DNA from: a virus
DNA: 55,389 nucleotides
Virus record (IMG/VR): IMGVR_UViG_3300046811_000055
Span: 1 to 55,389 of that record
Strand: one strand, 5' to 3'
A program made the translations under genes and the position numbers. Shown here piece by piece: positions 1,653 through 50,817 of this stretch. Each line of letters begins with the position of its first letter. Within the stretch, counting starts at the first letter, position 1. A model generated the notes under the pieces. It was not told the origin of the DNA. It saw only the letters and a program-made list of their open reading frames with translations, and searched no databases.

Positions 1653-1672
1653 GGCTACCTTTCCGAAAGATT

Positions 1673-1824
1673 GAGGGGTGGACAGGTGGACAGATGTCCA
1701 CCCCTCACTAGAGTTGCCTCGGGTGCAGGAAAGTCATTTTTTGTTGTTGTACTGGGGTTTTCTACAGAGCGTCGTTGAGATATTTTCCGGGAGGGGTGGA
1801 CAAACGTCCACCTGTCCACCCCTC
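1673..1824. repeat. Pair of mirror-image palindromes, GAGGGGTGGACA arms
   Basis: Two 34-bp palindromes lie at 1673-1706 and 1791-1824. Each has identical 12-bp arms (GAGGGGTGGACA / TGTCCACCCCTC) and a 10-nt loop. The loops are close reverse complements of each other (GGTGGACAGA and, reversed, GGTGGACGTT), so the whole forms a larger inverted repeat around an AT-rich core (about 1730-1790, with a T-run). The second palindrome overlaps the stop codon of the helicase/primase-like gene. Layout suggests a replication origin or operator; which is unknown. Confidence 0.75.
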
Positions 1825-3199
1825 ATACCAACCGATATCGGATTCGTTCCCTGCCGTGGTATTCATCCTTTTCTTGGAGCACCTCACCCGCACGAATCAG
1901 GGCCGTGATCGCGGGCTCCCAGTGGTCCCGCTCGGTCGACCGCAACGAGCCCCGCAGATGGCCGTGCACCATCGGCCCAGAGGCCAACTTGCCCCGGATC
2001 CGGCTGCTCAGTTTCTTCACGGCCACCTCGTCCACGTGCTCGGTGACGATCACGGTGCGCTCGGCCTCTTGCAGGGCCTTGCCCACGTTCTCCTTCTGCG
2101 ACTCCGCACGGAGCGCCTGGGCGCACATGGCACGTGTGCGGTCGCTCACCGTCATGATTACGCCCGAAAGTGCCCAGTCGTCATCGGTGACCTCTGTTCG
2201 GCCGTCAAGGATCGCCAATCCGGCGGCCACCTTCTCCCTGGTCAGCATCGAATGGCTGTCCACGGGCGGGGCCTCACCCCGGGCGCCCATCCGGCGACCG
2301 GCCTTGATCGACTCCTTGACGTAGGCCGGTAGGGGCACCGTGATCGGGCTGAACGGGCCTGTGAACGATTTGAACTCCGGCTTGGTCCACCGCCATGCGG
2401 GAGGCTCGTCCGGCTCGCTCTCGGGCGTCTCAGGGTCGACGGTGGGCATGTAGATGAACCGTTGCGGTGTGCCACCGGCCCGATCGTTGAGCAGGACGCC
2501 GGATCGGGTGGGCTGCATGCCGGCCACCAGGCAGAGCCGGTACTTGTGGGCTCCGACGATGCGCGTCGTCTCGTTGTTGGCGTTGCTGAATCCGAGCGTC
2601 TGGCCCATGGCGCCCTGACGGAGCATCGGCAGGATCGTGCTGCCCTGCCGGCCACTGATGGCCCCGAGTGTGTCCACCTCGCCGATGAACACCAGGGCGG
2701 AGGTCTCGTACTGGCACATTTCCTTGGCCTTGGCGTCCCAGCGCACGAACAGTGCCGACAGACCCTCGCCCGTGCCTAGCGGTTTGTCGTCGCGATCCTC
2801 GCCGTAGTCGAGGGCATCGCCGGCCGCCGCATTCGCCGCATCCTTGCCCGATCCCGACGGTCCTGATAGCGCCACGAAGAGGTTGAGAGAAGCTCTGCCG
2901 CCTGTAAGCGGAGGGAGTTGGACCTGTGGCGACACCGTGACGAGCACTCGTGCCAGAACGCAACCGAGCAGCGCCCACGGCGCAACGATGCGGGCGCGAG
3001 CGAAGGTATGGACGTGTTCGAGGACGGGCCTTGATTTCCAGAACGTCTCTTCGGTGATGCCGTGATCTCTCTCCTCCTCACTGACCGACGAGTGCCATTC
3101 CGGCGACTCGAAATCATCGGACCCGAATTCGTCATCTGGCTCGTCAACGCAGACCTCGCCGTTTTCCCCGACTGCGCCCTGCCAGAGATCGGCATTCAC
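1823..3199 (-). CDS. Helicase/primase-type P-loop ATPase
   Basis: The 458-aa product has a Walker A (GPSGSGKD, about residues 113-120) and a Walker B-like strand (ALVFIGEVD, about 168-176). Its overall pattern resembles the DUF3987/RepA-like helicase half of actinobacterial primase-helicase proteins. A prim-pol domain is missing; the N-terminus is a short acidic region. It probably acts in replication initiation or unwinding. The start is a GTG at 3199 forming GTGA with the upstream stop, behind AAGAAGG. Downstream lies the paired-palindrome region, a fitting target. Confidence 0.8.
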   Translation of the reverse strand: MNADLWQGAVGENGEVCVDEPDDEFGSDDFESPEWHSSVSEEERDHGITEETFWKSRPVLEHVHTFARARIVAPWALLGCVLARVLVTVSPQVQLPPLTGGRASLNLFVALSGPSGSGKDAANAAAGDALDYGEDRDDKPLGTGEGLSALFVRWDAKAKEMCQYETSALVFIGEVDTLGAISGRQGSTILPMLRQGAMGQTLGFSNANNETTRIVGAHKYRLCLVAGMQPTRSGVLLNDRAGGTPQRFIYMPTVDPETPESEPDEPPAWRWTKPEFKSFTGPFSPITVPLPAYVKESIKAGRRMGARGEAPPVDSHSMLTREKVAAGLAILDGRTEVTDDDWALSGVIMTVSDRTRAMCAQALRAESQKENVGKALQEAERTVIVTEHVDEVAVKKLSSRIRGKLASGPMVHGHLRGSLRSTERDHWEPAITALIRAGEVLQEKDEYHGRERIRYRLV

Positions 3200-4429: not shown

Positions 4430-4885
4430 TCAGCCAGCCTCCTGTCGAGCTCGAACGGCATCCCGCTCACGGCGCGCCTTGCGGTTGGCGGCATCCGCGC
4501 ACTTCTGAGCGTGGTACTTCCGGCTCCGACGCTCGCCACCGCCGACCGTGAATTCCTCCGTGCAGTCGAGCCCCGCACAGACGCGGGTTTCGATCGATCC
4601 CTGATTGAGATGCTCACCGCCCGACCGCGCCCGCCGATGCCAGGCCCACACGGTCTTGGGGCCGCTCTTGTCACCCCACACTCGCCCGGCGTACAACCCT
4701 GCCTCGCACCTCTTGCCTGCGAACTTCTCCTCCGCCTGCTCGAAGCACTGGCGCTTCACCGGGCACGCATGGCAGATCACCAGGGCCTTGACGTGCTGCT
4801 CAAGGCTCGCGTCGATCGCCCACAGTCCCGGGTCGACCCCGGTCCCCCATCGGCACGCCTTCCGGTACTCCCACTCGCCTCTCAT
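4430..4885 (-). CDS. WhiB-family iron-sulfur transcription regulator
   Basis: The 151-aa product has the WhiB cysteine set Cys11, Cys38-x2-Cys41-x5-Cys47, which ligates a [4Fe-4S] cluster, followed by the turn GLYAGRVWGD (63-72), close to the family G-(V/I)-W-G-G. Unusually it has about 75 extra C-terminal residues with a second Cys pattern (CAGLDC, later KYHAQKC) resembling a small zinc finger and a basic tail. Actinophage WhiB proteins modulate host sigma-factor transcription. Start ATG at 4885 is in ATGA overlap with the methyltransferase. Confidence 0.88.
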   Translation of the reverse strand: MRGEWEYRKACRWGTGVDPGLWAIDASLEQHVKALVICHACPVKRQCFEQAEEKFAGKRCEAGLYAGRVWGDKSGPKTVWAWHRRARSGGEHLNQGSIETRVCAGLDCTEEFTVGGGERRSRKYHAQKCADAANRKARRERDAVRARQEAG

Positions 4886-5875
4886 CGCTCGCCCTCCGTC
4901 CGCTCCAGCAGGCACCGGATAGCGGCTTCCGCCTGCTGCGGAACCACCCCGTTACCCAGCATCTTCAGTTGCTCGTTCGTGCTGATTCCGGGTACGTCCG
5001 TGACCCACCCGTCCGGCAGGCCGTTCATCCATTCGACAAACCGCGGCGCGGGCTTCGGCTGACCGTTCACTCCTGGAACGGTCCGGAACGGAGCGGATCG
5101 GCCTATGACCGATTCCCATCGGTCGATTGCCGGTCCGTAAATTCCCCATCCAGCGAGGTCAGCACCGTCCGTAGGTCCGGACCTCCCGTCCCGTGCCTTC
5201 CCGCTCCGTTCGTGTCTGACGTTCTCGGCGATGGCAGTAGTGCCAGTACTTGAGCCAGCGACGGCCTGTATCCCTCGCCGCTCCACGCCGCCCGCGTGGC
5301 TTGAGGCGTTGGCAGTAGGCCACGCGAGCACGAATACACGGAACCGTCCGTGGGCGGCTCCCACCCCGGACGCCGGTAGACCGATCCACTCCGCATCGAA
5401 CCCGAGGTCGGCCAAGTCCCCAAGAACGGCGCCGAGTGCTCGCAGAACAACTCGCTTTGACTCGTCACCCAGACACCCCGTGCACCATCCCAGCTGATGA
5501 GCGGGATGGCTTGCCTCCGTGCTGAGTAGTCCGCGGACATTCTCGATCACCACCAGTTCCGGCCGTAGGGCCTTGATCCCTCGCGCGAACTCCGACCACA
5601 ATCCCGAGCGCGTTCCTGGCTTCAGCCCGGGCCATCAGGCCGGCGGCCGATAGATCCGTGCACGGAAATCCGCCGCACATGATCTCCGGCCGCTCGACCG
5701 TGCTCCAGTCGACCTTGCTCACGTCCCCCAGGTTCGGAACGCCCGGCCACCGCGCTTCCAGCACCGTGCACGCCGCAGGCTCGATCTCGCTGTGCCATGC
5801 CGCCTTGGCCCCGAACACGGCCTCCACCGCCCGATCGAGACCGCCGTAGCCCGAGAAGAGCGACCCGTACCTCAC
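4882..5875 (-). CDS. C5-cytosine DNA methyltransferase, apparent frameshift
   Basis: The N-terminal half (from GTG 5875) carries the SAM-binding motif I (SLFSGYGGLD) and motif IV with catalytic Cys (GGFPCTDLSAAG). The C-terminal half carries the ENV motif (VVIENVRGLL) and motif X (LGNGVVPQQ). The halves are in different frames. Skipping one base in the CCCGGGC run at about 5624-5632 rejoins them as SAAGLMA-GLKPGTRSGLWSEF, a normal family sequence. This is a +1 shift: an indel, an assembly error, or programmed frameshifting. Function as a protective or epigenetic methylase is inferred; no partner restriction enzyme is seen. Confidence 0.8.
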
Positions 5876-6609
5876 GCCGGCTCGCTCGCACCGTTCGTGC
5901 GCGCGTCCTTCTCCCGCTCCAACCCGTCGATCACCACGTTCGCCGTAGCGGGCGTCAGTTCCTTGAATGACGTCACGGCGTGCTGCCCGCCCGCGGTCAG
6001 GATCCGGTTGACCCACTGCCCGCGGTCGATGTCGGACACCCCGAGTTCCTTGAGCAACGCGAATATCTGCCCCTGCTGCGGGCGCGTCATGGTCTCAGGC
6101 TCGCCCGGTAGCGGCATCCCGGCCACCGCATCCGGATCAGCCGGTGCCGTCTTGGCCGCGGGCTTCCGCCGCACGGTCGCTCCGACCGGCTTGCCCTCCG
6201 CATCCTCTTCCTTGTCCGGCGTCAGCCCGACCACCGCGCACAGCGCATACCGCCGTGCGTACGTGATCGCCGCCCCCAGTGCCTGAGGCTTGTTGTCCCC
6301 GAAGATCGGATACGTGCCCGTGCGCTGCTGCGGGCTCTCGGAGGTGTGCGAGATGTGCGTCAGTTCGTACCGCAGTACGGGCTTGCTGTCGTCAATGTCC
6401 GGCTGGCACGACCACATGAACCCGAACTTGGCCAGCACCGGGTACACCGCGTCGGTCACCGTCTTGAGGTTCGCGTAGTGCATGATCCCGCGATTACCGG
6501 CATCCGCCTCGCTCGTCTTCTTGACCTCGGGCAACTCCTGCTGCATGGCGAAGAACGCAGCGACGAACGAGGGGTACGCCGCAGCCTGATGTTGCGTGTT
6601 CTCGCTCAT
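5872..6609 (-). CDS. erf: ERF-family single-strand annealing protein
   Basis: The 245-aa product contains the ERF signature around ALGAAITYARRYALCAVVGL followed by an acidic DKEEDAEG stretch, typical of phage Erf recombinases that anneal single strands. The C-terminal 90 residues are variable and probably hold a protein-interaction domain. It sits beside a RecB-like exonuclease and a resolvase-like nuclease, forming a recombination set. ATG at 6609; the stop forms GTGA with the methyltransferase start. Confidence 0.9.
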   Translation of the reverse strand: MSENTQHQAAAYPSFVAAFFAMQQELPEVKKTSEADAGNRGIMHYANLKTVTDAVYPVLAKFGFMWSCQPDIDDSKPVLRYELTHISHTSESPQQRTGTYPIFGDNKPQALGAAITYARRYALCAVVGLTPDKEEDAEGKPVGATVRRKPAAKTAPADPDAVAGMPLPGEPETMTRPQQGQIFALLKELGVSDIDRGQWVNRILTAGGQHAVTSFKELTPATANVVIDGLEREKDARTNGASEPA

Positions 6610-6809
6610 CAGAGGCTCGATCCGCAGGTCAGATTGATGACGTATTTCACCGAGTCGACCGCCTCGCCGTACACCTCATATGAGGTTTGAGCGATCTCCA
6701 GTTCGTTCTTCAGGGCGTCGCGCCGCTCGCGCGCGCTTTCGAACTGTTCCACCAGGTAGACCAGGCGATCGCTCGCCGCCTGTGGGATCTCCTGCATCGC
6801 ATCAGCCAT
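6609..6809 (-). CDS. Small coiled-coil protein A, 66 aa
   Basis: A heptad-like helix spans residues 14-50. It is clearly related to the next upstream protein: both have FE(S/E)AR-(E/D)RRD, a Tyr-(E)-Tyr-rich segment and an (A/S)(I/V)xxxIN ending, so the two genes look like a tandem duplication. They lie between the recombinase and the exonuclease, but a role as accessory factors is only a guess. Confidence 0.65.
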   Translation of the reverse strand: MADAMQEIPQAASDRLVYLVEQFESARERRDALKNELEIAQTSYEVYGEAVDSVKYVINLTCGSSL

Positions 6810-7029
6810 TCGGCACGCTCCGATTCATTCGCTCGAGCTGGGCAACCGCCCCCGGGGCAACTGCGTTGAGGATGAAGTCGATCGCCGCGAGAGCCTCGCT
6901 CGTCAGTTCGTACTCGTACTGCGCTCGGTCTAGTTCGGCCTGAGCCCTGTCGCGTCGGTCCCTGGCTTCCTCGAATTTCACCCTGAACCGTTCGCGCCGT
7001 CGTGCAACGCCATCGGGAAACGGATCCAT
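6802..7029 (-). CDS. Small coiled-coil protein B, 75 aa
   Basis: Paralogue of the 66-aa neighbour, sharing the FEEARDRRD helix and the closing AAIDFILN segment. The ATG at 7029 forms TGATG with the exonuclease stop, and the gene overlaps the next one by 8 nt. Function unknown. Confidence 0.65.
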   Translation of the reverse strand: MDPFPDGVARRRERFRVKFEEARDRRDRAQAELDRAQYEYELTSEALAAIDFILNAVAPGAVAQLERMNRSVPNG

Positions 7030-7838
7030 CAGAACTCCATCCGGATCGGGGGCTCTAGCGGTTCGCCCACCGCGCCCTTGTTGGCCTCGATCTCTTCGGC
7101 CGCCTGCTTGAGATACAGGAAGCCCCGGTGCGCCTTCTCGCCCGCCTCAACGGGTTTCAGGTGATAGCCACCGTCCCAGACGTGCAGCACGCCGCACCGG
7201 TCGAACTGCGGCATCTCGTGCTCGATCGGGTCGCCCTCGTCGGGGTACTCGATCCACACGTCCGCATACCGGTACGGCGCGAGTTGGAACGCCACCTCGT
7301 CGTAGACACCCGACCCCGTCTTGACGTCGATCAGCCAGTTCTCGCGGACCCACGATTCATAGGTCGCCCCGCCGAGACCGGTGTTCACGAGCAAGCTCGC
7401 GCCCATATCGAGCGTCCCGCAGTAGCCGTGCACCTTGCTCCACACCACGGCCTCGGACATGAACACCGTGACGTCGAAGTCGTAGAGGAACTGGGTATAC
7501 GCCTCGACGTAGCCCACGAGCTCGGCCGGCACCTGCACCGTCTCGCCGGCCGCCACTGCGGCGCCGAGTACGTGGACCTTGGTCCCCTTGATCTTGGCCG
7601 CCTCATTCCGCCGACGATGCGCGTACGCCACCGCCTTGTAGCGCTCCGACGGTTTCATGGCCACGAGCTCGTCCCAGTAGTCGAGGACATAGTCACCACC
7701 CTGTCGCCCGGCCCACGGCGTGAGCACGCGCTGCAACGGAATTGCCTTGTCCAGAATCCCGGTCACGCCCGGTACCCGCTGGCCCGACTCGTTCTCGTAC
7801 CAGTGGTAGCGCCCCTTGTCGACGCGCCGAATCGTCAC
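7029..7838 (-). CDS. RecB/Cas4-like PD-(D/E)XK exonuclease
   Basis: The 269-aa protein has the RecB-nuclease motif order: GTKVH with His89, GTLD with Asp144, IDVKTG with Asp171 and Lys173, and QLAPYRY with Gln185 and Tyr189. These are the metal-binding and catalytic residues of phage RecB-like/Cas4-like 5'-3' exonucleases, which make single strands for an annealing protein. Pairing with ERF two genes downstream fits that role. Start is GTG in GTGA overlap with the previous gene. Confidence 0.85.
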   Translation of the reverse strand: MTIRRVDKGRYHWYENESGQRVPGVTGILDKAIPLQRVLTPWAGRQGGDYVLDYWDELVAMKPSERYKAVAYAHRRRNEAAKIKGTKVHVLGAAVAAGETVQVPAELVGYVEAYTQFLYDFDVTVFMSEAVVWSKVHGYCGTLDMGASLLVNTGLGGATYESWVRENWLIDVKTGSGVYDEVAFQLAPYRYADVWIEYPDEGDPIEHEMPQFDRCGVLHVWDGGYHLKPVEAGEKAHRGFLYLKQAAEEIEANKGAVGEPLEPPIRMEF

Positions 7839-13298: not shown

Positions 13299-13325
13299 CA
13301 CCTGCCCTCCGTGTGGCTCCGGAAG

Positions 13326-13543
13326 TTGAAAACTGAATCCCGTCGAATCAGCGCTACGCGGTGAGTGTGTTTCCCGCCTTGCCCCTGTCGGTTGGAAGAG
13401 TTCCTTCCCGGGGAGTGGCGTTCCCGGTCATTGACGCTTGCGCGTTTAACCCGGGTTCTGTTTCTCGTCCGGTACTAACGTCCCCGCTTGGAAGTTCGGG
13501 CGCCCGTTTGGCTTTTCTCTTCGTTCCGGGATTCAGTTTTCAA
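13326..13543 (-). ncRNA. Candidate structured leader RNA closed by a 17-bp stem
   Basis: TTGAAAACTGAATCCCG and its perfect complement lie at 13326-13342 and 13527-13543. In the leftward transcript they can form a 17-bp stem closing a 184-nt domain that contains further palindromes (CGGGCGCCCG, AACCCGGGTT, GGAAGGAACTCTTCC). The 3' arm ends shortly before the ribosome site of the first early gene. No open frame with a ribosome site is seen inside. It could be a riboswitch-like leader, an attenuator, a stable ncRNA, or a non-autonomous mobile element; no target-site duplication flanks it. Confidence 0.5.
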
Positions 13544-13580
13544 TCTGCGTGTCGGTGGCGTTAACTTCCCGACACCTCAG

Positions 13581-13609
13581 ACATTAGACCCCCTGCCAAA
13601 ATTTGGCAA
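13581..13609 (-). promoter_or_regulatory. Leftward early promoter
   Basis: TTGCCA (-35, 13604-13609) and TAATGT (-10, 13581-13586) are spaced by 17 nt on the minus strand. The -35 box is part of the palindrome TGCCAAA-A-TTTGGCA, so a regulator bound there would block it. Predicted transcripts enter the structured leader upstream of the 67-aa gene. Confidence 0.55.
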
Positions 13610-13690
13610 CCCGTCCTGCCGAATCCCTTGGGGGAATCTCAGATGCCTGTCCGCGCGTCCGTCCGTGTCATACTTGCCAAAGTTTGGCAA
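13594..13690. promoter_or_regulatory. Two palindromic operators, TTGCCAAA-N-TTTGGCAA
   Basis: A 15-bp palindrome at 13594-13608 and a 17-bp one at 13674-13690 share the half-site TTGCCAAA and sit in the divergent control region between the leftward early genes and the rightward plasmid-like genes. Spacing of 80 bp would allow looping. Their position makes them the best candidates for the master control of this region; the cognate regulator is not identified. Confidence 0.7.
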
Positions 13691-13721
13691 CCGGACAGGA
13701 CAGGTCAGAGGAGACAGGTCA

Positions 13722-14144
13722 ATGGGCAGGCATCACGCACGGCGGAACTACGGACACCCCGCTGTCCTCGGGGGAGCGGCTGTCCTCGTCGTCCTCGTCA
13801 GCGGGGTGTCCGGTTACACCTACGTGACTCCCGATCCCCCGGCGGTACGCTCGGAGCGTCCGGCCCTGCTGATTCCAGCGGCAGCGGCCGGACAGTTCAG
13901 CACCAGCGCGGCAGAGGCGGCTCGGCCAGCAGCGGTGCGGACTAAGAGGCCCCGTCCGGCCGGATCGCCCTCCGCCCCCGGACGGGGCCTCACCCCGTCC
14001 CGGACGTCGAAGCCCTCCGCCCGACCCGTGCCGAAGCCCTCGCTCGTGCACGCCGCGGTGGTCGCCTCGCCGACGCCAGCGCCTCACCCTTCCCCGAGTG
14101 CGGTACCGAGCTCTCCCGCGTGCGAGTGGAGGTGGCACCAGTGA
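13722..14144 (+). CDS. Membrane-anchored Pro/Ala-rich exported protein, 140 aa
   Basis: A short basic N-terminus is followed by one hydrophobic segment (about residues 14-33, signal anchor) and then about 100 residues rich in Pro, Ala, Ser and Arg, ending in CEWRWHQ. The topology suggests an extracytoplasmic extended tail. It is the first gene of the rightward operon and overlaps the translocase by GTGA. Function unknown; a cell-wall or channel-associated partner of the translocase is an inference. Confidence 0.7.
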   Translation: MGRHHARRNYGHPAVLGGAAVLVVLVSGVSGYTYVTPDPPAVRSERPALLIPAAAAGQFSTSAAEAARPAAVRTKRPRPAGSPSAPGRGLTPSRTSKPSARPVPKPSLVHAAVVASPTPAPHPSPSAVPSSPACEWRWHQ

Positions 14145-16327
14145 GCCGCAGGAAAGACAGCAAGCACAGCGAGACCAAGACGCCGGCCGCGCACAACCAC
14201 CCGCGCCACAAGATCCATGCCTACTGGCCCCCGTGGCTCGCGGGTCCGCTCGCAGTCGGTCTCGGCGACCTCGGTCACTGGCTCTGGGGCCGGACCCTCC
14301 CGGCGGCGGCCATCGTCCCGCTCGTCCTTGTCCTGTCCACGGTCGGGCTGTCCGCGCTGACCCATCGGTACGCCAGTCCCCGGAACAATGTCCAGCAGTG
14401 GCATGCTGTCCTGTCCGTCGCTGTCCTCGGACTGTCCCTGTCCGCTGTCCAGATGTTCGGGACAGGATGGCCCCCGAACGCACTCGGACAGTCCGTCCTG
14501 TTCCTGTCCGCTGTCCTCGCGCTGTCCTGGAACATCCGCCGGTTCGAGGTTGTCCGCGGCGGAGGACAGGACGAGCACGGACAGAGCAGCGCCGAAGAGG
14601 ACTGGCACGGGCTGAAGAAGCCCCGATCGATGAAGGTCGTTTCGACCGACGACAAGCAGACCACCACCAAGGTCAAGCTCGCTGCGGGCCAGACCGCCGA
14701 AGAGGTGGAGAAGATCCTTCGCTCGATGGGCAGCGATCTTGGCACCGTGACCAACGGCGTCCGCGTGGTCGACGGCGAGCGTGAGGGCGACGTCGAGATC
14801 ACCGCGATCTGGGAGCAGCCGCTCACCGAGGCGACCGGGTGGGAAGGCCCGAGCCACATCGGGGGCAGCATCGCCGATCCGATCTCGCTCGGCATGAACG
14901 AGCAGAGTGCCGACGTGATCCTCCGCATGGCCGGGGACTACAGCACGGGCATCGCCCCCGGCCACGTCGCCGTGGTCGGGATGCCCCGCACCGGCAAGGG
15001 GATCTGCCTGCTCGTCATCTGGGCCAACCTGCGCGCTCGCCGTGACGTCTACCCCGTGATCAACGATGCGGCCAAGGGCGAGCAGATGCTGATGTTCCTC
15101 CGCCCCGGAATGCCCAGGGAAAAGGCGTGGATCGACACCACCGTGACGGGCGCGAAGACGCAGGCCACGGCGGTCATGAACGCCATCGACAAGCGCAACA
15201 AGGCCCTCGGTGAGGGTGGCTATTCGAGCTGGACGCCCGAGGCCTTCAGCAAGGGCGTCATGTGGAAGGGCCAGCGCATCCACATGCCCGCCCTCGTCTT
15301 CCACGTAGAGGAGTTCGCACCCATCGGCATCGCCAGCCCCGGTCTCTTCACCAAGATCGCCGAGCAGGGCCTGTCCGCGGGGATCTTCCTCATCACGTCC
15401 TTGCAGCGTGCGAGCCATGACCGCTTCCCGACCAGCCTGCGCAGCGTGATCGGTAACGGCATCTGCTACGGCGCGTTCAGCGACGTAGACGTCAGCTTTG
15501 CCCTCCCCGATGACGCCGTTGCCGGTGGCGCCAGTCCCGCCAAGTGGGGGCAGAAGTTCCCCGGCAGGGCCATGGCCAGCTTGAACGGTCAGCCTGACGG
15601 CATGGACCGCATCCCGTTCAAGACGCACTACGCCTCAAGTCAGGACGAGTTTGAGACCTACATGAAGGAGATGATGGCCTACCTCCAGCCCCTGGCTCCC
15701 GAGCTCGACCCGTGCACCGCCGAAGCGTTCGGCCAGCCCTACCAGGACTACCTCGCCGGCGAACTGATAGGGCCGGACCCGAAGGCATCACCGAAACGCC
15801 CCGGCCGGAACCCGGTTCGGCCTGACGAGGATGACGAGAGAAGCAGCATCGAAGAGGAGGAGGACGACATACCTGATGACGACGACGACCCGAACGAGGC
15901 TCACTACGTGAAGCGACCCCACCCCGAGGACTGCGACCCCACTGGTATCGACCCGCGCGCCCCGTTGCCCGAATGGGAGGGCCCGGAGATCGACCTTGCC
16001 CCCCCGGCCACTCCCGGCAAGCAGCGCCGAGACCTCAGTCCGCAGGAAAAGCGCGAGCTCTTCCGCGAGATCCTCCAGCGCCTCGCCGACGAGAAGGTCA
16101 CCGAGGTCCGCACGGGCAAGCTGATGGACATCTGGTACGAGGAACTCGGCCAGCCCAAGGCGCGCCAGGAGCCCACCGTCGCCCGCCTGATCAACGACGC
16201 TGCGGCTGAGGATCTGGAGGACGGCAAGCCCAACGACCTGCTCGGCACGCTCGACCGAGGCCCCCGTGGCCTTTACTACATCAAGCTCACCCGACGCGTG
16301 GCCGCCATGAACGGCAACCACTCGTGA
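14141..16327 (+). CDS. FtsK/TraB-type DNA translocase
   Basis: The 728-aa protein starts at a GTG with GGAGG upstream. It has about four N-terminal membrane helices (within residues 30-132), a P-loop GMPRTGKG (about 280-287), a Walker B-like strand ALVFHVEEFAP (about 384-394), an acidic linker (about 565-590) and a C-terminal winged-helix-like domain (about 625-728). This order matches hexameric membrane DNA pumps: FtsK/SpoIIIE and the TraB-type proteins of Streptomyces conjugative plasmids. It has no role in ordinary phage packaging, so conjugative or intra-host DNA transfer, or segregation, is likely. Its 5' part is packed with CTGTCC hexamers. Confidence 0.85.
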   Translation: MSRRKDSKHSETKTPAAHNHPRHKIHAYWPPWLAGPLAVGLGDLGHWLWGRTLPAAAIVPLVLVLSTVGLSALTHRYASPRNNVQQWHAVLSVAVLGLSLSAVQMFGTGWPPNALGQSVLFLSAVLALSWNIRRFEVVRGGGQDEHGQSSAEEDWHGLKKPRSMKVVSTDDKQTTTKVKLAAGQTAEEVEKILRSMGSDLGTVTNGVRVVDGEREGDVEITAIWEQPLTEATGWEGPSHIGGSIADPISLGMNEQSADVILRMAGDYSTGIAPGHVAVVGMPRTGKGICLLVIWANLRARRDVYPVINDAAKGEQMLMFLRPGMPREKAWIDTTVTGAKTQATAVMNAIDKRNKALGEGGYSSWTPEAFSKGVMWKGQRIHMPALVFHVEEFAPIGIASPGLFTKIAEQGLSAGIFLITSLQRASHDRFPTSLRSVIGNGICYGAFSDVDVSFALPDDAVAGGASPAKWGQKFPGRAMASLNGQPDGMDRIPFKTHYASSQDEFETYMKEMMAYLQPLAPELDPCTAEAFGQPYQDYLAGELIGPDPKASPKRPGRNPVRPDEDDERSSIEEEEDDIPDDDDDPNEAHYVKRPHPEDCDPTGIDPRAPLPEWEGPEIDLAPPATPGKQRRDLSPQEKRELFREILQRLADEKVTEVRTGKLMDIWYEELGQPKARQEPTVARLINDAAAEDLEDGKPNDLLGTLDRGPRGLYYIKLTRRVAAMNGNHS

Positions 16328-16521
16328 CCAAGCGCGAGGCGGCCATCGTCATGGCCTATACGGGCGTTGCTCTCGGAGACTTTCAGACCTTCCACGAGTA
16401 CGCCGAAGAGGTGCTCGGCCGTCCGGTCTGGACGCATCAATTCGGCGATCAGGCCGTGGCCGACGAACTGAGGGCGGCTAGTCGGGCGGACTTCCTCGCC
16501 CTTCAGGTTCACAATGCGTAA
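16324..16521 (+). CDS. Hypothetical protein, 65 aa
   Basis: A small protein beginning MTKREAAIVMAYTGVALGDF with an acidic, helical character. This type occurs as a stand-alone small gene in many actinophages, but I know no function. GTG/ATG overlap with the translocase stop (ATG at 16324 within GTGACC context) indicates coupling. Confidence 0.65.
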   Translation: MTKREAAIVMAYTGVALGDFQTFHEYAEEVLGRPVWTHQFGDQAVADELRAASRADFLALQVHNA

Positions 16522-16527
16522 CCGCTT

Positions 16528-16621
16528 GCCCAGCTGGGCGCCCACAGTGCCCGTGCCTTCCTCCCTTAGGGGATTTCCCGTTGCCCAACAGTGGGCAACG
16601 GCCTGTATGCCCAAATGGGCA
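16528..16621. promoter_or_regulatory. Three TGCCCA/TGGGCA palindromes
   Basis: The 122-nt gap contains GCCCAGCTGGGC (16528-16539), CGTTGCCCA-ACAG-TGGGCAACG (16579-16600) and TGCCCA-AA-TGGGCA (16608-16621). All share the half-site (T)TGCCCA but with spacers of 0, 4 and 2 nt. They can be protein-binding sites or RNA hairpins. The half-site resembles that of the 13.6-kb operators (TTGCCAAA), so one regulator may see both. A GAGGAG ribosome site for the next gene follows. Confidence 0.65.
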
Positions 16622-16643
16622 ACACGAGGAGTAACGAACTGAC

Positions 16644-16976
16644 ATGGCCAACCCACTGCTCGACATCAACGAATTCCACCGGGGAAGCGCGTTCCGCGAC
16701 TACCTCGAACGCTCCCGGGCGCACACGCTGGCCGGCGAAACCGGCCTGCGCTCCGCCGCTGCCGAGATCCGCAACCTGATCCGGGCGAACGGCAACAACA
16801 TGAACCCGCAGACCTACCTGAACGCCCGCCGCATCTCCCGGCCCCTGCTGCACGCCGCCGACCTGCACAACGACGCCGCCCAGATGTTCGCCCTCTGCCT
16901 CGCCCTGCACCGCGGCGCCTTCCCGCCCGTGAGCGCCACCACCGGCCAGCGCCGATCCCACGACGGCAACGCCTAA
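16644..16976 (+). CDS. Hypothetical protein, 110 aa
   Basis: A helical, Arg/Asn/Leu-rich soluble protein without a recognised family. It opens a sub-operon behind the triple palindromes and ends in TAATG overlap with the next gene. Role in transfer is suggested only by position. Confidence 0.65.
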   Translation: MANPLLDINEFHRGSAFRDYLERSRAHTLAGETGLRSAAAEIRNLIRANGNNMNPQTYLNARRISRPLLHAADLHNDAAQMFALCLALHRGAFPPVSATTGQRRSHDGNA

Positions 16977-17254
16977 TGAACCGCGAGCTACGGCAGAAGG
17001 CCGTCGAGTCGGCCGCTGCCCGGTACGGAGCCGAGCACTACCGCGGCATCCTGTTCTGGGTCTCGTTCGGGAAGTGGTGGCCGGTTGGCGTGGTGGCCGC
17101 CCTGATCCTGGGGATCTACTGGCTCACCCGGAACGTCTCACCGGGTGGCGCCGCGGCCGGTGGCTTCGGGGTAGCCGCGGTCGCCCTCGCCCTGCTCGTC
17201 ATCTGGCTGATCATCCGGCGCCTTCGTAGCCCCTACCGCCGCCGGAGGTTCTGA
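16976..17254 (+). CDS. Two-helix membrane protein, 92 aa
   Basis: Two hydrophobic helices (about residues 34-50 and 60-80) follow a basic helical N-terminus, and the C-terminus is highly basic (RRLRSPYRRRRF). Coupled to both neighbours. Small membrane proteins beside a TraB-type gene are reminiscent of Spd spread proteins of Streptomyces plasmids, but there is no sequence signature to prove this. Confidence 0.65.
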   Translation: MNRELRQKAVESAAARYGAEHYRGILFWVSFGKWWPVGVVAALILGIYWLTRNVSPGGAAAGGFGVAAVALALLVIWLIIRRLRSPYRRRRF

Positions 17255-17568
17255 TGCTGAGGTGGCTCCGACGACTCGCTTCTGGCGGCGAGGTGCGCCC
17301 GCAGGGTCCGGGGGATTCGATTCCGGTCACCCTGCACAAGGCCGCCGTGCACGCCATCGTCTCGGTCGAACGCCAGGTCATGGCCGTGCCCGAGGTAGAC
17401 GGCTCCCGAATGACGGCCGAGTGGCACGGTGGTCCGTACCTCATGAAGAACGTCGAGCGCGAGGTCAGCGTCATCATGTGCCTGTGCGGAGAGGACGGAT
17501 GGGCCTACCGGGACGAGGACGTCCCGACTGTCTTCGCCGTCCACCTCCGTGAGGTGACCTTCCCGTGA
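17254..17568 (+). CDS. Hypothetical protein, 104 aa
   Basis: A beta-rich small protein with a basic first segment (MLRWLRRLASGGEVRP). No family recognised. Its stop overlaps the next start by 4 nt. Confidence 0.6.
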   Translation: MLRWLRRLASGGEVRPQGPGDSIPVTLHKAAVHAIVSVERQVMAVPEVDGSRMTAEWHGGPYLMKNVEREVSVIMCLCGEDGWAYRDEDVPTVFAVHLREVTFP

Positions 17569-18053
17569 CCCGTATCGGGCATCGGCTGCTCGGGGGATGC
17601 TGTGGGCTCGCCCTCGCCACGGTGGCTAGCCTTCCGGCCTTTGAGGCGGTCGCTGTAGCCATCATCGCCGCCGTGGTGGCCCCGTGGCCCGACGTCGACC
17701 AACGGCGCTGGTGGCGGGACTGGTTCGGCGAGATCAAGGCCCTACGGCATCGGCGGCTCACGCACTGGTGGGGAGTGCCGACCGCGCTCCTGCCGCTGTT
17801 CTTCCTGCTGCACGGCCCGCTCGCGTGGCTGCTCGGAGCGGCACTCACGGGCTGGTATTCGCACCTCGCCGGCGACTGGGTATTCGGCAAGCGCGGGCCA
17901 GCAGTAACAGGCTGGCGTGGCCCCGGCATCCCGCTCGCTCCCTGGTGGGGCTACCACGGCCTGGGCCTGAAGTGCGGCGGCAAGGCGGAGAGATACGGCG
18001 CGTGGCCCATTCTGGCCGGCGCGCTGGCAGTGCAGGTCTGGTTCATGGCATGA
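17565..18053 (+). CDS. DUF457/YdjM-like membrane metal-dependent hydrolase
   Basis: The 162-aa membrane protein has three to four helices and conserved polar sites DVDQRRWW, HRRLTHWWG and SHLAGDW, the Asp/His pattern of the DUF457 (YdjM/YbcI) family of putative membrane metal-dependent hydrolases. The substrate of this family is unknown. In the transfer-like operon it could act on membrane or cell wall material. Start GTG at 17565 (GTGA). Confidence 0.7.
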   Translation: MTRIGHRLLGGCCGLALATVASLPAFEAVAVAIIAAVVAPWPDVDQRRWWRDWFGEIKALRHRRLTHWWGVPTALLPLFFLLHGPLAWLLGAALTGWYSHLAGDWVFGKRGPAVTGWRGPGIPLAPWWGYHGLGLKCGGKAERYGAWPILAGALAVQVWFMA

Positions 18054-18181
18054 GCTACATCCGGTGGGCACTCGCTCGACTCGGATACGCCGTTCGCCCC
18101 TACGACATGCTTGCTGACCAGCGACGATGGTTCTGGCAGCCTCGACAGCACTGCGGATTCCCGATCCGGAAAAGGAAGTAA
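18050..18181 (+). CDS. Hypothetical small basic protein, 43 aa
   Basis: A basic, Trp/Arg-rich peptide (MSYIRWALARLGY..., ending FPIRKRK). ATG at 18050 forms ATGA with the previous stop. Two nucleotides separate it from the HTH gene. Function unknown. Confidence 0.55.
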   Translation: MSYIRWALARLGYAVRPYDMLADQRRWFWQPRQHCGFPIRKRK

Positions 18182-18183
18182 CC

Positions 18184-18411
18184 GTGACGACGTCGGATGC
18201 ACCGGCAAGGCTCAGCCGCCCGGACGCCGCAAGATACTTGGGCCTGTCGATCGGCACCCTGCGCAACTATCACCAGCAGGGGAAACTCAGCCCAGAAGTG
18301 GACGAGCGTGGCCAGTGGTGGTATCCCCTGGCCACGCTCGATGAGTTCGTCTCGGTCAATCAGTTGCTGTGCTCCCGGGGGATTCGTCCCGCTCGGTCAG
18401 AGAGCTCATGA
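18184..18411 (+). CDS. Excisionase/MerR-like helix-turn-helix protein, 75 aa
   Basis: The pattern LSRPDAARYLGLSIGTLRNY followed by a Gly-containing wing is the HTH_17/excisionase fold. GTG at 18184 has AAGGAAG 6 nt upstream. It may be a plasmid-type regulator or Xis. No integrase accompanies it, so autoregulation of the transfer-like operon is more likely. The 3' end overlaps the convergent 100-aa gene by 56 nt. Confidence 0.75.
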   Translation: MTTSDAPARLSRPDAARYLGLSIGTLRNYHQQGKLSPEVDERGQWWYPLATLDEFVSVNQLLCSRGIRPARSESS

Positions 18412-18658
18412 CCGGATACAGGTCAGGCATGCTCAGGCAGGCGTCGATCACCTCGCTCACGATGGCGAGATCCTTCGGGATTTTGCCGCCCGCGCGGCCG
18501 AAGTTGGCGCCCCGTACGTACGCCATGACGGCAGCCTCCATGACCAGCCGCGCCTCTTGCTGCGTCATGGCGTGGATGGTGGCGTTCATCCGGTCGACCC
18601 GGATCTGCTCGCGCTCGGCGAGGTACGCCACGATGCTCGGGGGAAGGGCTTCGGTCAT
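18356..18658 (-). CDS. Hypothetical protein, 100 aa
   Basis: A mostly helical soluble protein with no recognised family. The ATG at 18658 overlaps the DUF2637 gene stop (ATGA), so it is the last gene of the leftward unit starting at the leaderless micro-gene. It converges with the HTH gene. Confidence 0.6.
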   Translation of the reverse strand: MTEALPPSIVAYLAEREQIRVDRMNATIHAMTQQEARLVMEAAVMAYVRGANFGRAGGKIPKDLAIVSEVIDACLSMPDLYPVMSSLTERDESPGSTATD

Positions 18659-19356
18659 GATCGCGCCGCCTTCAGTTCTCGGGTCAGGTCCGCAGCGGCC
18701 TGAGTGCTGATCCTGTAGCCCTGCTCCTTCAGCTTCTCCACCAGCGACGCCCGGTTGAGTTTGTCCCCGAGTTCCTCAGCGATCTCGCGGGCAGCGGACA
18801 ACCGGGCGTCGCTGTCCTGTGCGGGGACAGGCTTGCGGACAGGCATCGGGCGGACAAAGCCGTTTGTCCTCGGGTTGTCCTCGGGGACAACGGACGGGAC
18901 GGGCTTGTCCTCCGGCATGATCGCCGGACCGACCTGAATCGTCTTGCGGACAGGCTTGGGGACAGCGACCGGAGCGGGCTTGTCCTCTGTCCGCGCCGGA
19001 CGGGACAGGACGAAGGTCGCCACGATCATCGCTCCGTCGATCGCGAGCGGGTAGAGGACAGCGGACACGTCCGACTCCCCGTAGCTCTTGGCCAGAGTCG
19101 AGATGTGGTCATAGGAGATCGCGAAGCAGAGGAACGCCACGACGCCCGTCGTCACCCGGATCCACCAGCGCCCGTCCTGGGCGGCCACGTGGAATGCGAT
19201 GAACAGGAGGACGGGAACGACCGCACTGAGGGCCTTGGCTCCCGGGTTCTGGTGCGCGTGCGCGTAGTTGGCAGCAACCGTGGCCAACGTGCCAGCGCCG
19301 AGGAGCAGGTACGCCATGCCTCGCCCGCTGAAGAGCTTGCCCAGTTTCGCCCTCAT
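18655..19356 (-). CDS. DUF2637 (plasmid spread-type) membrane protein
   Basis: The 233-aa product has four membrane helices in its first 120 residues, ending with SYDHISTLAKSYG and LYPLAIDGAMI, the DUF2637 signature found in Streptomyces plasmid and integrative-element proteins (Spd-type and relatives). The rest is a Pro/Lys-rich linker and a C-terminal winged-helix-like region (about 180-233). Presence beside a TraB-type gene strengthens the plasmid-transfer reading. The linker DNA is rich in GGACAG hexamers. Confidence 0.8.
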   Translation of the reverse strand: MRAKLGKLFSGRGMAYLLLGAGTLATVAANYAHAHQNPGAKALSAVVPVLLFIAFHVAAQDGRWWIRVTTGVVAFLCFAISYDHISTLAKSYGESDVSAVLYPLAIDGAMIVATFVLSRPARTEDKPAPVAVPKPVRKTIQVGPAIMPEDKPVPSVVPEDNPRTNGFVRPMPVRKPVPAQDSDARLSAAREIAEELGDKLNRASLVEKLKEQGYRISTQAAADLTRELKAARS

Positions 19357-19637
19357 GACTCACGCCCGTAGTCGTCACAGATACTCGCGTGCCCGTTAAC
19401 CCCACCGCAGAGCGGGCATGCGGGGGAGCCGAGATGGTTGGCCCCGTTCGGGTCCTCGCCGCACTCAACGCATCGGGTCGGGTCCGAAACGCGCACCTTC
19501 GCTCGGTGCACTCCCGGAGCGATCACCGTGTACCCCAGCTCCCGCAGAGCCGCCGCATACTCGTCCGCCTTGCGCTCAAGGAACTTCATGCGTCGAACCT
19601 GGTTCGCCTTGGCCGTCCGCTCCTGCGGCGTGGTCAT
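19353..19637 (-). CDS. Zinc-ribbon protein, 94 aa
   Basis: A basic coiled helix (residues 1-30) is followed by four CxxC/CxxH-type elements: CVECGEDP, CPLCGG and nearby His residues, a typical zinc ribbon. ATG at 19637 is in ATGA overlap with the 42-aa gene. Function unknown. Confidence 0.65.
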   Translation of the reverse strand: MTTPQERTAKANQVRRMKFLERKADEYAAALRELGYTVIAPGVHRAKVRVSDPTRCVECGEDPNGANHLGSPACPLCGGVNGHASICDDYGRES

Positions 19638-19762
19638 CGCTCGATCGCCCGGTAGAGGTTACGGATGGCGTAGCCAGCCATGTAGAGGAGCGTCACGAGC
19701 GCCTCGAACAGCCGGATGAGCCAACGGTTAATTGCGCTGTGAATGTTCCGCATCGTCTCCAT
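19634..19762 (-). CDS. Micro-protein, 42 aa, probably leaderless
   Basis: An amphipathic to hydrophobic helix (about residues 15-32) with Arg at both ends; probably membrane-associated. Its ATG lies only 7 nt after the TACAAT -10 box, so transcription would begin at or next to the start codon and no ribosome site is present. It heads the unit with the zinc-ribbon and DUF2637 genes. Function unknown. Confidence 0.6.
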   Translation of the reverse strand: METMRNIHSAINRWLIRLFEALVTLLYMAGYAIRNLYRAIER

Positions 19763-34981: not shown

Positions 34982-35823
34982 CAGAACATCGCCGCCCTCT
35001 TGGGGCCGAGCAACTCTCGCACCCTGTTCGGGAGTGAGAAGCCCAGCTGGACAGCGGCCATGTCGTCCTCGGGACCGGTGCCACGTGCACGCCGGTTGCG
35101 CCCCTGCTGGCTGTTCCGCCAAAGGTGCGCGGTCAGTTCGAGGTAGGCCAGCCGGATGTTCGGAGGGACGGGCCCTGTCCGGCCGGAGATGTAGACGACG
35201 TCCGCCGTGTCGCCCTGTCCGGTGAACGGGATCGGGTACCCGCCGGCCCCTGTCCGCTCCACGATCCCGGTCGGGATGTCGAATCGGTACGTGGACGGAT
35301 CAAGGGTCACCATCGCCGCGGCCGAGTAGTAGACCTTCAGGGACGTGATGCTAATGACGGGACGGTTGGTCAGGATCAGGCGGTAGCCGTCGATCGACAG
35401 CGTCTCGGTGTACGACGTGGGGACGACGTCACCGACCTCGCGGGTAATCACGGCCTGCGCCGCGTCCATGAAGTCCTGAATCTCGACGTCGTCAGCGGTG
35501 TTCTGCTTGTTCATGTGCAGCTTCGCGTCGGCGAGGCTGGAGATCCGGCGGGTGATGGCCAGCACGTCGAACTGGCCGTCGTCCACGCCGATGGCCGCAC
35601 CGGACGCCGTCCACAGGTAGAGCCAGGTGCCTGCCTGGTTGGTCGTCACATTGCAGGAGTAGGTGCCCGTGCCCGTGTTGGTGATCGTCAGAGTCACGCC
35701 GGAAACGAGCGTGGTGCCGTCAGGTCGGGTGACGGTCAGGCTCATCGTGGCGTTGGTCGGGGCGCCGAGTATGTCGGTGACCGTGGTGTTGAGCACGACC
35801 TGCTGGCCGAGCGTGTAGCTCAT
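34981..35823 (-). CDS. Head-tail connector with N-terminal Ig-like domain
   Basis: Residues about 1-90 form an Ig-like beta domain (TRPDGTTLVSGVTLTITNTG). The rest (from ITRRISSLADAKLHMN) matches phage head-tail adaptor proteins (gp6-like): DDVEIQDFMDAAQAVITREVGDVVP. The fused Ig domain probably decorates the neck. It overlaps the repeat-protein gene by ATGA. Confidence 0.85.
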   Translation of the reverse strand: MSYTLGQQVVLNTTVTDILGAPTNATMSLTVTRPDGTTLVSGVTLTITNTGTGTYSCNVTTNQAGTWLYLWTASGAAIGVDDGQFDVLAITRRISSLADAKLHMNKQNTADDVEIQDFMDAAQAVITREVGDVVPTSYTETLSIDGYRLILTNRPVISITSLKVYYSAAAMVTLDPSTYRFDIPTGIVERTGAGGYPIPFTGQGDTADVVYISGRTGPVPPNIRLAYLELTAHLWRNSQQGRNRRARGTGPEDDMAAVQLGFSLPNRVRELLGPKRAAMF

Positions 35824-37112
35824 CGCGGACCTCCCGGGGCCGAGACTGCGGACAGGAGAGTGCCGGACGGACGGACAGCGGACGTGAGCGGCCAGCGCGC
35901 GGACGGGACAGAGGACAGGACAACGGACGGGACATTGACCCCTGGCTGAAACCCGATCGCGGACAGTGCTCCCGTGGCGGACAGGACAGCCGTCCCCCGG
36001 ATGATCATCGTGGGGACAGCGGACAGGACGCCCGCTCCGGACAGCAGAGCCGTCGCCTGCTGCCTGGCCAGAGCGGACAGCGTCCCCGTGGCGGACAACG
36101 TGGCGTTCACCCCGGCGGACTGACTTCCGGCCGCGGACATCGATCCGGCGCCCGCCATGGTGGCGGAGCCGCTGATCACGACGGAGCCCGCTGCGGTGAG
36201 CACGCCCGCTCCGACCGCCGTGGCAGAGGATCCCTGCGTGGCACTGGCCGTGAGCGAGCCTGCGCCCGCTCCGGTCGACGCCGCTCCCTGGCGGGCTGCC
36301 GCATTCAGGGAAGCCGCTCCGGCCAGCGTGGAAGTTGCGGCCTGCACCGCCGCTGCCGTCAGCGCTCCCGAACCGGCGACAGCGGCGGTAGCTCCTTGGC
36401 CGGCCAGTGCCGACAGCGCGCTCGCGGCGGCCATCGTCGCCGACCCGCTCACGGCCCCGTTGGCCGTGGCCACGAACGTGCCCGAGCCCGTCATCGTGGC
36501 GGTCACGAGTTGGTTGACGACCGAGGACAGCGAACCCGCGCCGGACAGGGTAGCGGATCCCGCGATGAAGGCGGATGCGGACAGTGATCCGGAGCCGGAC
36601 AGGACAGCGGATGAACCTTGCCGGACGGTGCCGGACAGGATGCCCGCTCCGGACAGCGTGGCCGCGCCCGTGATCGCCCCTGCGGCGGACAGGATGCCCG
36701 CCCCGGTGAGGGTGGCCGTACCGGAGACGACCAGCAGGCTTGCGGCGGACAGGGCTCCAGCGCCCGCCATGGTGGCGGATCCGGTGATGATCTGCGTGCC
36801 GGTCGCGGACAGGATGCCCGCACCGGTCATCGTGCCCGTTGCGGACTGAGTGGCCGCGGCGGACAGGGCCCCGGCGCCGGCCATCGTCGCCGCGCCTTGG
36901 ATGCGCTGCACGGCTACTGCGGACAGGGTTCCCGCACCGACGAGGTTGGACGTCGCGCCCTGGGTCGCGGTCGCGGTGAGGGCGCCCGCTCCAGCTTCCA
37001 CGGAGGCCGTGCGCTGCGTCGCAGGAGCGGAGAGCGTACCGGCGCCCGCCATCGTCGCGGTCCCGTTGACGGTGACCGCAGTCGGCTGGCGGAGGAGCAG
37101 GAGGAGCGTCAC
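35820..37112 (-). CDS. Tandem-repeat structural protein, about 20 repeats
   Basis: The 430-aa product is built from roughly 20 copies of a 17-20 residue unit with consensus (S/G)-A-T-M-A-G-A-G-x-L-S-A-x-(A/G)-x-Q, followed by a non-repeat tail of about 40 residues. A regular G-x-G-x-L-x-A pattern suggests a beta-solenoid or extended fibre. It lies among head-connector genes and next to the SGNH hydrolase, so it is likely a virion decoration or fibre. GTG at 37112 (GTGA). The repeats make its DNA rich in GGACAG. Confidence 0.8.
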   Translation of the reverse strand: MTLLLLLRQPTAVTVNGTATMAGAGTLSAPATQRTASVEAGAGALTATATQGATSNLVGAGTLSAVAVQRIQGAATMAGAGALSAAATQSATGTMTGAGILSATGTQIITGSATMAGAGALSAASLLVVSGTATLTGAGILSAAGAITGAATLSGAGILSGTVRQGSSAVLSGSGSLSASAFIAGSATLSGAGSLSSVVNQLVTATMTGSGTFVATANGAVSGSATMAAASALSALAGQGATAAVAGSGALTAAAVQAATSTLAGAASLNAAARQGAASTGAGAGSLTASATQGSSATAVGAGVLTAAGSVVISGSATMAGAGSMSAAGSQSAGVNATLSATGTLSALARQQATALLSGAGVLSAVPTMIIRGTAVLSATGALSAIGFQPGVNVPSVVLSSVPSARWPLTSAVRPSGTLLSAVSAPGGPR

Positions 37113-48953: not shown

Positions 48954-49126
48954 TTGGCCCTCGCTTCGTCCAGCTCATCGAGCAGGCCCAGGACGACGGC
49001 GGGGGTAGCGGCCAGGAAGAACGCGAGTCGCTGGGCGGAGGGGCGGCCGGGCCATTCCTTCGGTCCAGTGGCCAGTTGCTCGGCAGCGGCTTCGGCGGAC
49101 GCTCGGAGTTCGGCGTGCTCAGGCAT
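48950..49126 (-). CDS. Hypothetical protein, 58 aa
   Basis: An Ala/Glu-rich helical protein with good GGAGG 6 nt before the ATG at 49126. It overlaps the IbrA-like gene stop by 8 nt. Function unknown. Confidence 0.6.
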   Translation of the reverse strand: MPEHAELRASAEAAAEQLATGPKEWPGRPSAQRLAFFLAATPAVVLGLLDELDEARAK

Positions 49127-50405: not shown

Positions 50406-50817
50406 CCTCGGTCTCCTCATCAAACAGGCCGGGCTGGATCGTGGCCGGCACCGGCACGTTCGCCTGCTCCCATTCATGGATGACGATCTCGGCCATGTTG
50501 TTCGCGGCTTTGCGCTGTGCGTCGGAGAGGTTCGACCACGCGACCTTGGTGGCGTTGGCCGGCGCGAGGTTGTTGATCATGCAGGCCGCCCAACCGAGCC
50601 ACGCCCGACGGTTCTGGTCGGGGTTGCTCATCTGGTGCAGCGCGGCGTTCGGCCAGCTGGCCACCGCGGTCTGCATGGCGATGCGAAGACGCTCGGGATC
50701 GGCGAGCAGGGCCTGAGCGTCGATCACCTGGCGGGGCGAGTGGGTCAGCGCGTACATGCCGACGCCGTAGTCCTCCCACTGGTGATAAGGCAGCGACACG
50801 CGCTGAATCTCAGGCAT
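50398..50817 (-). CDS. Conserved middle gene of the Ibr-like cassette, 139 aa
   Basis: A soluble helical protein (YALTHSPRQVIDAQALLADPERLRI..., NLAPANATKVAWSNLSDAQRKAANNM) inserted between the IbrB- and IbrA-type genes with 8-nt overlaps on both sides. I recognise no named domain. Its placement suggests it is a third component of the same pathway. Confidence 0.7.
   Translation of the reverse strand: MPEIQRVSLPYHQWEDYGVGMYALTHSPRQVIDAQALLADPERLRIAMQTAVASWPNAALHQMSNPDQNRRAWLGWAACMINNLAPANATKVAWSNLSDAQRKAANNMAEIVIHEWEQANVPVPATIQPGLFDEETEDA

Follow-up and report, generated by a model that had tools for sequence, protein, structure and literature searches.

Why should a siphophage genome carry an operon that resembles the transfer genes of Streptomyces plasmids? 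The question is raised by the IMG/VR virus record IMGVR_UViG_3300046811_000055, which was analysed over its whole length of 55,389 bases (referred to below as the window); its contig ends are open and it is possibly incomplete. An earlier note on this DNA had described a plasmid-like transfer (tra) module built around a TraB/FtsK-type DNA pump, and had offered maintenance, conjugative spread and segregation as possible roles. Conjugative spread is the best supported of these at the sequence level because the pump gene contains an array of short repeats like those at the cis-acting transfer loci (clt) of plasmids. The reading that we favour, and hold to be reasonably probable, is that of a phage-plasmid with a Streptomyces-type conjugation module, in which TraB loads on the word GGACAG and which spreads both by virions and by mycelial conjugation. 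Streptomyces plasmids use TraB to transfer whole dsDNA from cell to cell on contact; with this pump and repeats that resemble its loading site, the phage can probably spread by mating besides virus particles.

A TraB-family DNA pump

The traB gene (14141..16327, plus strand) was predicted to encode a membrane-anchored double-stranded DNA (dsDNA) translocase of the FtsK/SpoIIIE type, 728 amino acids (aa) in length. The NCBIfam model plasmid_TraB (NF041214) matched residues 23-668 of this protein with E=1e-91 and 308 bits, below the curated cut-off of 800. A tblastn search with the phage TraB returned 50 plasmid records, 45 of which were from Streptomyces; the best had E=2e-36 and approximately 29% identity. 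The best PHROG match was phrog_24831 (E=2e-50), a family to which TraB of the Streptomyces plasmid-phage pFP4 aligns end to end (1-700 of 700, 1413 bits). In a phylogenetic tree the phage TraB fell within the clade of TraB proteins from plasmids and actinomycete integrative and conjugative elements (AICEs) (27 rows, 100/100), and the FtsK-like outgroup was likewise placed at 100/100. Four hydrophobic segments were found near the N-terminus, and the Walker A sequence GMPRTGKG and the sequence VFHVEE aligned with plasmid TraB proteins, the G, GK and EE columns being invariant. A profile made from plasmid TraB proteins retrieved solved structures of FtsK and EccC, and a model of the C-terminal part of the phage protein (predicted local distance difference test, pLDDT, 62.6) had the H-S-H-H-S-S topology of helices (H) and strands (S) of a winged helix. 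Judged by its sequence, the 728-aa protein is a member of the Streptomyces plasmid TraB family. Thus the pump and the Streptomyces-plasmid character of the module, both proposed in the earlier note, held up: profile, BLAST and tree agree.

The tra module within the phage genome

The window is best explained as all, or the greater part, of the genome of a siphophage of actinobacteria. Genes for the terminase (TerL), portal, HK97-type major capsid protein, tape measure, tail proteins and endolysin are on the minus strand, and Erf, an exonuclease, a RusA-type resolvase, a clamp and the helicase half of a phage/plasmid DNA primase-polymerase (1823..3199, minus strand; phrog_28894, E=4.5e-63) are also encoded. 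The sole sizeable plus-strand block is 13722-18411. A gene caller based on codon usage placed 14141-18053 on the plus strand and nearly all of the remaining genes in the window on the minus strand.

A second IMG/VR virus contig, G001 (35,427 bp), has the same order of early genes, tra operon, DUF2637 gene and lysis genes, on to the portal. Identities between the two phages were 64-67% for TraB, 74% for the DUF2637 protein, 87% for the YdjM-like protein, 91% for the major capsid protein and 86% for the portal. An assembly chimera was considered and ruled out, as the module is joined in G001 to the counterparts of these lysis and virion genes. Since the otherwise syntenic G001 carries the module at the corresponding position, the module is, on sequence grounds, native to the phage and not a recent insertion. 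It appears to be rare in IMG/VR because scans of viral contigs with TraB, the TraB pair, DUF2637 and YdjM as queries yielded G001 alone. Searches of phage records with TraB and with DUF2637 (tblastn), and of phages with the module and with the first 25 kb of the window (megablast), gave no match. A scan of viral contigs with the capsid protein found 22 loci, among which, besides G001, only one 69-kb contig had a marginal FtsK match (E=8e-4). When genomes were scanned with the capsid, a single distant metagenome-assembled genome of the Microbacteriaceae was retrieved, which was without TraB.

GGACAG arrays in traB and two other genes

The window contains 83 copies of GGACAG/CTGTCC, compared to 42 expected, and the excess is concentrated in arrays. 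The candidate clt array (13647..14584) comprises 21 copies including those in the leader, and 15 of these lie within 252 bp in the 5' part of traB (14333-14584). A second array of eight copies is located within the DUF2637 gene (18812..19061; 14 copies in G001), and a third, of 23 copies all on one strand, in a low-complexity gene of the late cluster that encodes AGAGxLSA repeats (35820..37112, minus strand; 22 copies in G001). G001 carries arrays at the corresponding three places, and none of the seven TraB-less relatives examined has them. The strand bias of the word differs among the three arrays, and the copies in traB span two reading frames.

GGACAG was the top clustered 6-mer of the window, with a score of 20 compared to at most 9.7 in 20 simulated sequences. 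Clustering alone was not counted as proof; the coding repeats of other phages also cluster (score of 29 in G011). Synonymous codons were shuffled within each gene, 2000 times per gene. In the window, traB had 15 copies compared to a shuffle mean of 1.7, the DUF2637 gene 8 compared to 1.6, and the late gene 23 compared to 10.1; in G001 the corresponding values were 15 and 1.8, 14 and 3.7, and 22 and 8.1. None of the 2000 shuffles reached the observed count in any of these genes. The arrays as a by-product of LS or PV peptide repeats were ruled out by these shuffles. When words were ranked by the same test, GGACA was the top 5-mer in all six gene sets, and GGACAG the top 6-mer in four and second in two; these genes were chosen for the motif, so the ranking is a check and not an independent discovery.

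The two phages share 12 of the traB copies, and four and three are private. Among codons for the same amino acid, those touching the motif were unchanged between the phages in 28 of 30 cases (93%), compared to 275 of 425 (65%) elsewhere (P=0.001). Because the codons touching the motif are conserved beyond others and the shuffles never reach the observed counts, comparison of the two genes indicates that GGACAG is held at the DNA level.

Comparison with known clt sites

The clt sites known so far consist of 7-9-bp words repeated in an array at a tra gene, and the winged helix of pSVH1 TraB reads 8-bp words (PMC3583192, PMC4170104). Loading of plasmid TraB on clt words, formation of a hexamer and transfer of duplex DNA are established (PMC3583192, PMC4170104). 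The experimentally defined clt repeat of pWTY27 is TGACACC (PMC3583192), and no clt has been described for pSAM2 (PMC9513070). When 20 chromosomal TraB loci were put through a similar scan as a control, the highest-ranking clustered word of 6 or 7 bases began, in 19 of them, no more than approximately 30 bp from the traB stop codon. The words of these arrays included TGACACC, TGACGC, CTGTCAC, CGTCAC and similar sequences, and GGACAG/CTGTCC is one base different from TGACAG/CTGTCA, which was found in several of them. The CCGCACA clt array of pJV1, directly past traB, was seen by reading the sequence. Because of its conservation at the DNA level and the clt-like arrays by traB in 19 of 20 loci, GGACAG is a good candidate for the TraB loading site (clt, or TraB recognition sequence, TRS), unusually placed within traB itself.

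Two further observations concern such arrays elsewhere. In large actinobacterial genomes, nearly all chromosomal TraB elements have an array of 6-8-bp repeats 0-200 bp past the traB stop codon, which is a predicted clt. The DUF2637 genes of the plasmid-phage pFP3 (29950) and of an S. longwoodensis plasmid (5293) each cluster one short word, CCGAAGC and CGTGAAC, respectively.

Control region and other genes of the module

Between the early genes, which run leftward, and the tra operon, which runs rightward, lies a divergent control region (13302..13721), which was recognised from the gene map and sequence and is partly conserved in G001. Allowing up to three mismatches, TTGCCAAANTTTGGCAA has two matches in the whole window (0.02 expected), both just upstream of the tra operon on the plus strand. 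These are palindromic operator 1, CTGCCAAAATTTGGCAA (13593..13609), of which G001 has a degenerate copy, and palindromic operator 2, TTGCCAAAGTTTGGCAA (13674..13690), directly upstream of the operon. The 15-bp core of the latter is exact in G001 at 3170-3184, so that at the corresponding place in G001 the TTGCCAAANTTTGGCAA core is present once exact and once degenerate. From their sequence and position the two palindromes look like a dedicated operator pair for the tra operon. The divergent region also contains a perfect 17-bp inverted repeat, TTGAAAACTGAATCCCG, at 13326-13342 and 13527-13543, with 184 bp between the two copies.

The open reading frames described in the earlier note were recovered at the positions given there; new relative to it are the DUF7736 gene, the weak TraA-like gene, the pair of palindromic operators and the arrays of GGACAG. 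On the plus strand, the first gene of the operon (13722..14144) is an open reading frame for a proline-rich protein with a single membrane anchor, as had been proposed, and is 50% identical in G001. Downstream of traB are genes for a small DUF7736 protein (16324..16521; Pfam PF24875, E=3.7e-20) and a weakly TraA-like protein (16644..16976) that matched NCBIfam NF041213 with E=6e-4; its G001 homologue matched the same model with E=0.024, and both are far under the cut-off. These are followed by a small protein with two membrane segments (16976..17254; 36% identical in G001), a 104-aa protein without a family match, placed from the gene map (17254..17568), and the membrane protein (17565..18053) previously called DUF457-like, which matched the YdjM family (Pfam PF04307, E=5.5e-10). 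The last gene of the plus-strand block (18127..18411; 73% identical in G001) had been called Xis-like; the helix-turn-helix (HTH) prediction stood, and profile matches placed the DNA-binding protein in the MerR/HTH_17 type. It is possibly a regulator, judging by its family. The gene map then gives a 100-aa protein without a family match (18356..18658, minus strand). The DUF2637 membrane protein (18655..19356, minus strand), of a kind found in actinobacterial plasmid transfer operons, was confirmed by Pfam (PF10935, E=5.3e-7, above the gathering threshold), and in one plasmid a DUF2637 gene adjoins TraA/TraB. The claim that the module lies mostly opposite to the phage genes was correct for 13722-18411; the DUF2637 gene and the gene at 18356-18658 share their strand with the rest of the phage.

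Integrase, replication and persistence

The absence of an integrase noted previously was confirmed: no tyrosine or serine recombinase was found in the window, with its open ends, in searches with PF00589 and PF07508. Beside the primase-helicase gene, at 1653..1822, GTGGACA repeats form a clustered word and, together with two inverted repeats, flank an AT-rich stretch, which is possibly a replication origin or operator. The repeats at 1653-1822 share a GGACA core with the word of the traB array. An episomal life is suggested by the sequence because the window has no recombinase and does have this iteron-like stretch, and the siphophage probably persists as a plasmid. A ParB-like gene (50810-51511) was set aside as evidence for partition, as it is near a DUF3440/PAPS-reductase (PAPS, 3'-phosphoadenosine-5'-phosphosulfate) gene and no ParA was recognised. 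The region 49119-51511, in which the DUF3440/PAPS-reductase-type gene is followed by two genes, one of them the ParB-like gene, probably forms a set concerned with DNA modification or sulfur and not with partition.

A model for transfer and its alternatives

In the model that we favour, a repressor bound to the two TTGCCAAANTTTGGCAA operators would silence the tra operon in the lysogen, and the operon would be derepressed at cell contact. TraB would be held in the membrane by its N-terminal helices and its C-terminal winged helix would bind the GGACAG array in traB. A TraB hexamer formed on the duplex would then pump unnicked double-stranded phage-plasmid DNA into the neighbouring hypha without a relaxase, and DUF2637, the TraA-like protein and the other membrane proteins may help the DNA to pass from one side of a septum to the other as it spreads. 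Two routes would thus be open to the phage: virions, and conjugation between mycelia. A more far-reaching version, which we regard as conceivable but tentative, is that of a dual virion/TraB-mating lineage in which the start of transfer was rebuilt inside the pump gene and echoed in the DUF2637 gene and the late gene, so that one word would link conjugation, spreading and perhaps the lytic programme.

Several results weigh against the conjugation model. The phage TraB does not reach the NCBIfam cut-off (308 of 800 bits), a shortfall that it shares with the TraB proteins of pFP3 and pFP4 (428 and 426 bits), and no Pfam FtsK/SpoIIIE domain was detected in it at E 0.01. The pair of phage TraB proteins sits on its own long branch in the tree, and because of this the function could have drifted. 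The full-length structure model was poor (AlphaFold with two sequences, pLDDT 33), and the C-terminal model had no significant match in the PDB. In neither phage was an array found in the usual place 3' of traB, the third GGACAG array is in a late gene 20 kb away, where a simple clt does not account for it, and the automatic scan of pJV1 did not place the known clt first. No host, lysogen or ParA was recognised, and the contig is perhaps incomplete.

Three other explanations were weighed. The most serious concerns the arrays alone and is compatible with TraB as a conjugation pump: the GGACAG copies may be unrelated to TraB and serve another phage or host protein, as replication iterons or the sites of a regulator, or may simply reflect repetitive coding. 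The presence of GGACA in the iteron-like region (1677-1825) and of one array in a repetitive late gene fits this explanation, which we consider doubtful given that the synonymous shuffles exclude amino-acid sequence and codon usage alone, that the traB copies are in two reading frames, that traB itself holds the densest array, and that the words resemble the clt repeats of other TraB elements. TraB might instead serve vertical inheritance and, in the manner of SpoIIIE/FtsK, segregate the prophage plasmid across septa or into spores, with GGACAG as loading or orienting sites. Membership in the FtsK/SpoIIIE superfamily, arrays with differing strand bias at three places, as expected of orienting sequences, and the lack of a recognised ParA would all be in keeping with such a role. 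However, the phage TraB branches with conjugative TraB proteins and not with the FtsK-like outgroup, it has kept DUF2637 and a TraA-like gene next to it, as is typical of transfer operons, and GGACAG is not distributed genome-wide as are sites of the KOPS (FtsK-orienting polar sequences) type, so this role appears unlikely.

It also seems quite improbable that the module is a decayed or repurposed one, captured from a plasmid and now used for intracellular spread, DNA entry or superinfection exclusion rather than for conjugation. All of its genes are intact and kept in both phages, between which TraB is 64-67% identical, and the GGACAG motif is under selection at synonymous sites. On the other side, the TraA match is very weak, the hallmark clt 3' of traB is absent, and the phage TraB is at most 36% identical to any plasmid TraB; matches in 395 genomes of the family of G184, a genome of 8.9 Mb, were only 26-36% identical.

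Known relatives and significance

The search for related modules proposed in the earlier note found, in addition to G001, the Streptomyces plasmid-phages pFP4 (NC_017833) and pFP3 (NC_023067) and the Pseudonocardia alni plasmid pPaSha2 (CP052773). Like the window, pFP4 and pFP3 combine a virion module with DUF2637, TraB and replication genes, and they are extrachromosomal replicons whose tra block is opposite to the virion genes. Their TraB proteins are 24-25% identical to that of the window, the order of their tra genes differs, their virion genes are distantly related or unrelated, and they have an integrase and ParA, neither of which was recognised in the window. pPaSha2 is a 42-kb circular plasmid with a full set of phage genes and a TerL 36% identical to that of the window; in a layout similar to that of the window, its FtsK and DUF2637 genes adjoin lysis genes, and they run opposite to the virion genes. 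In CP052773.1 these two genes are found at 4807-7484, beside the holin. Unlike the window, pPaSha2 has an FtsK that is hardly TraB-like (E=4e-9), and it encodes an integrase and Bet. The transfer ATPase is opposite to the virion genes in pFP3, pFP4 and pPaSha2 alike.

Elements without virion genes, including pJV1, pWTY27, the S. longwoodensis plasmid and AICEs, share with the phage a TraB with transmembrane anchors and DUF2637/TraA neighbours, and their clt is a repeat array (PMC3583192), as is the candidate clt of the phage. They differ in that their clt is directly 3' of traB, not in its 5' part, and uses another word. FtsK/SpoIIIE-like proteins of the Streptomyces phage Gilgamesh and of Bacillus phages share the RecA-like translocase fold with TraB; they matched a plasmid TraB query weakly (E of approximately 1e-3 to 1e-7) and did not match the phage TraB query. 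The combination of virion genes with TraB/DUF2637 therefore has precedent in pFP3, pFP4 and pPaSha2; what is new here is the deep TraB branch, the array embedded in traB and the lack of a recognisable integrase in the window.

The usual view of phage-plasmids is that they travel as virions and that, at most, the mob/oriT (oriT, origin of transfer) system of a helper can mobilise them (PMC11652158). Conjugation of plasmid-phages in the episomal state is mentioned in a passage of PMC4170104, with reference to Chen et al. 2012. PLSDB lists pFP3, pFP4 and pPaSha2 as non-mobilizable. Because a dsDNA pump made of a single protein works without relaxase and oriT, the usual mobility typing would miss TraB-type transfer. 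Should the GGACAG array be where TraB loads, a single protein and a single DNA fragment would suffice for a direct test, and scans for arrays beside traB offer a route to predicting clt sites across AICEs. Few known plasmid-phages appear able to spread by mating as well as by virions.

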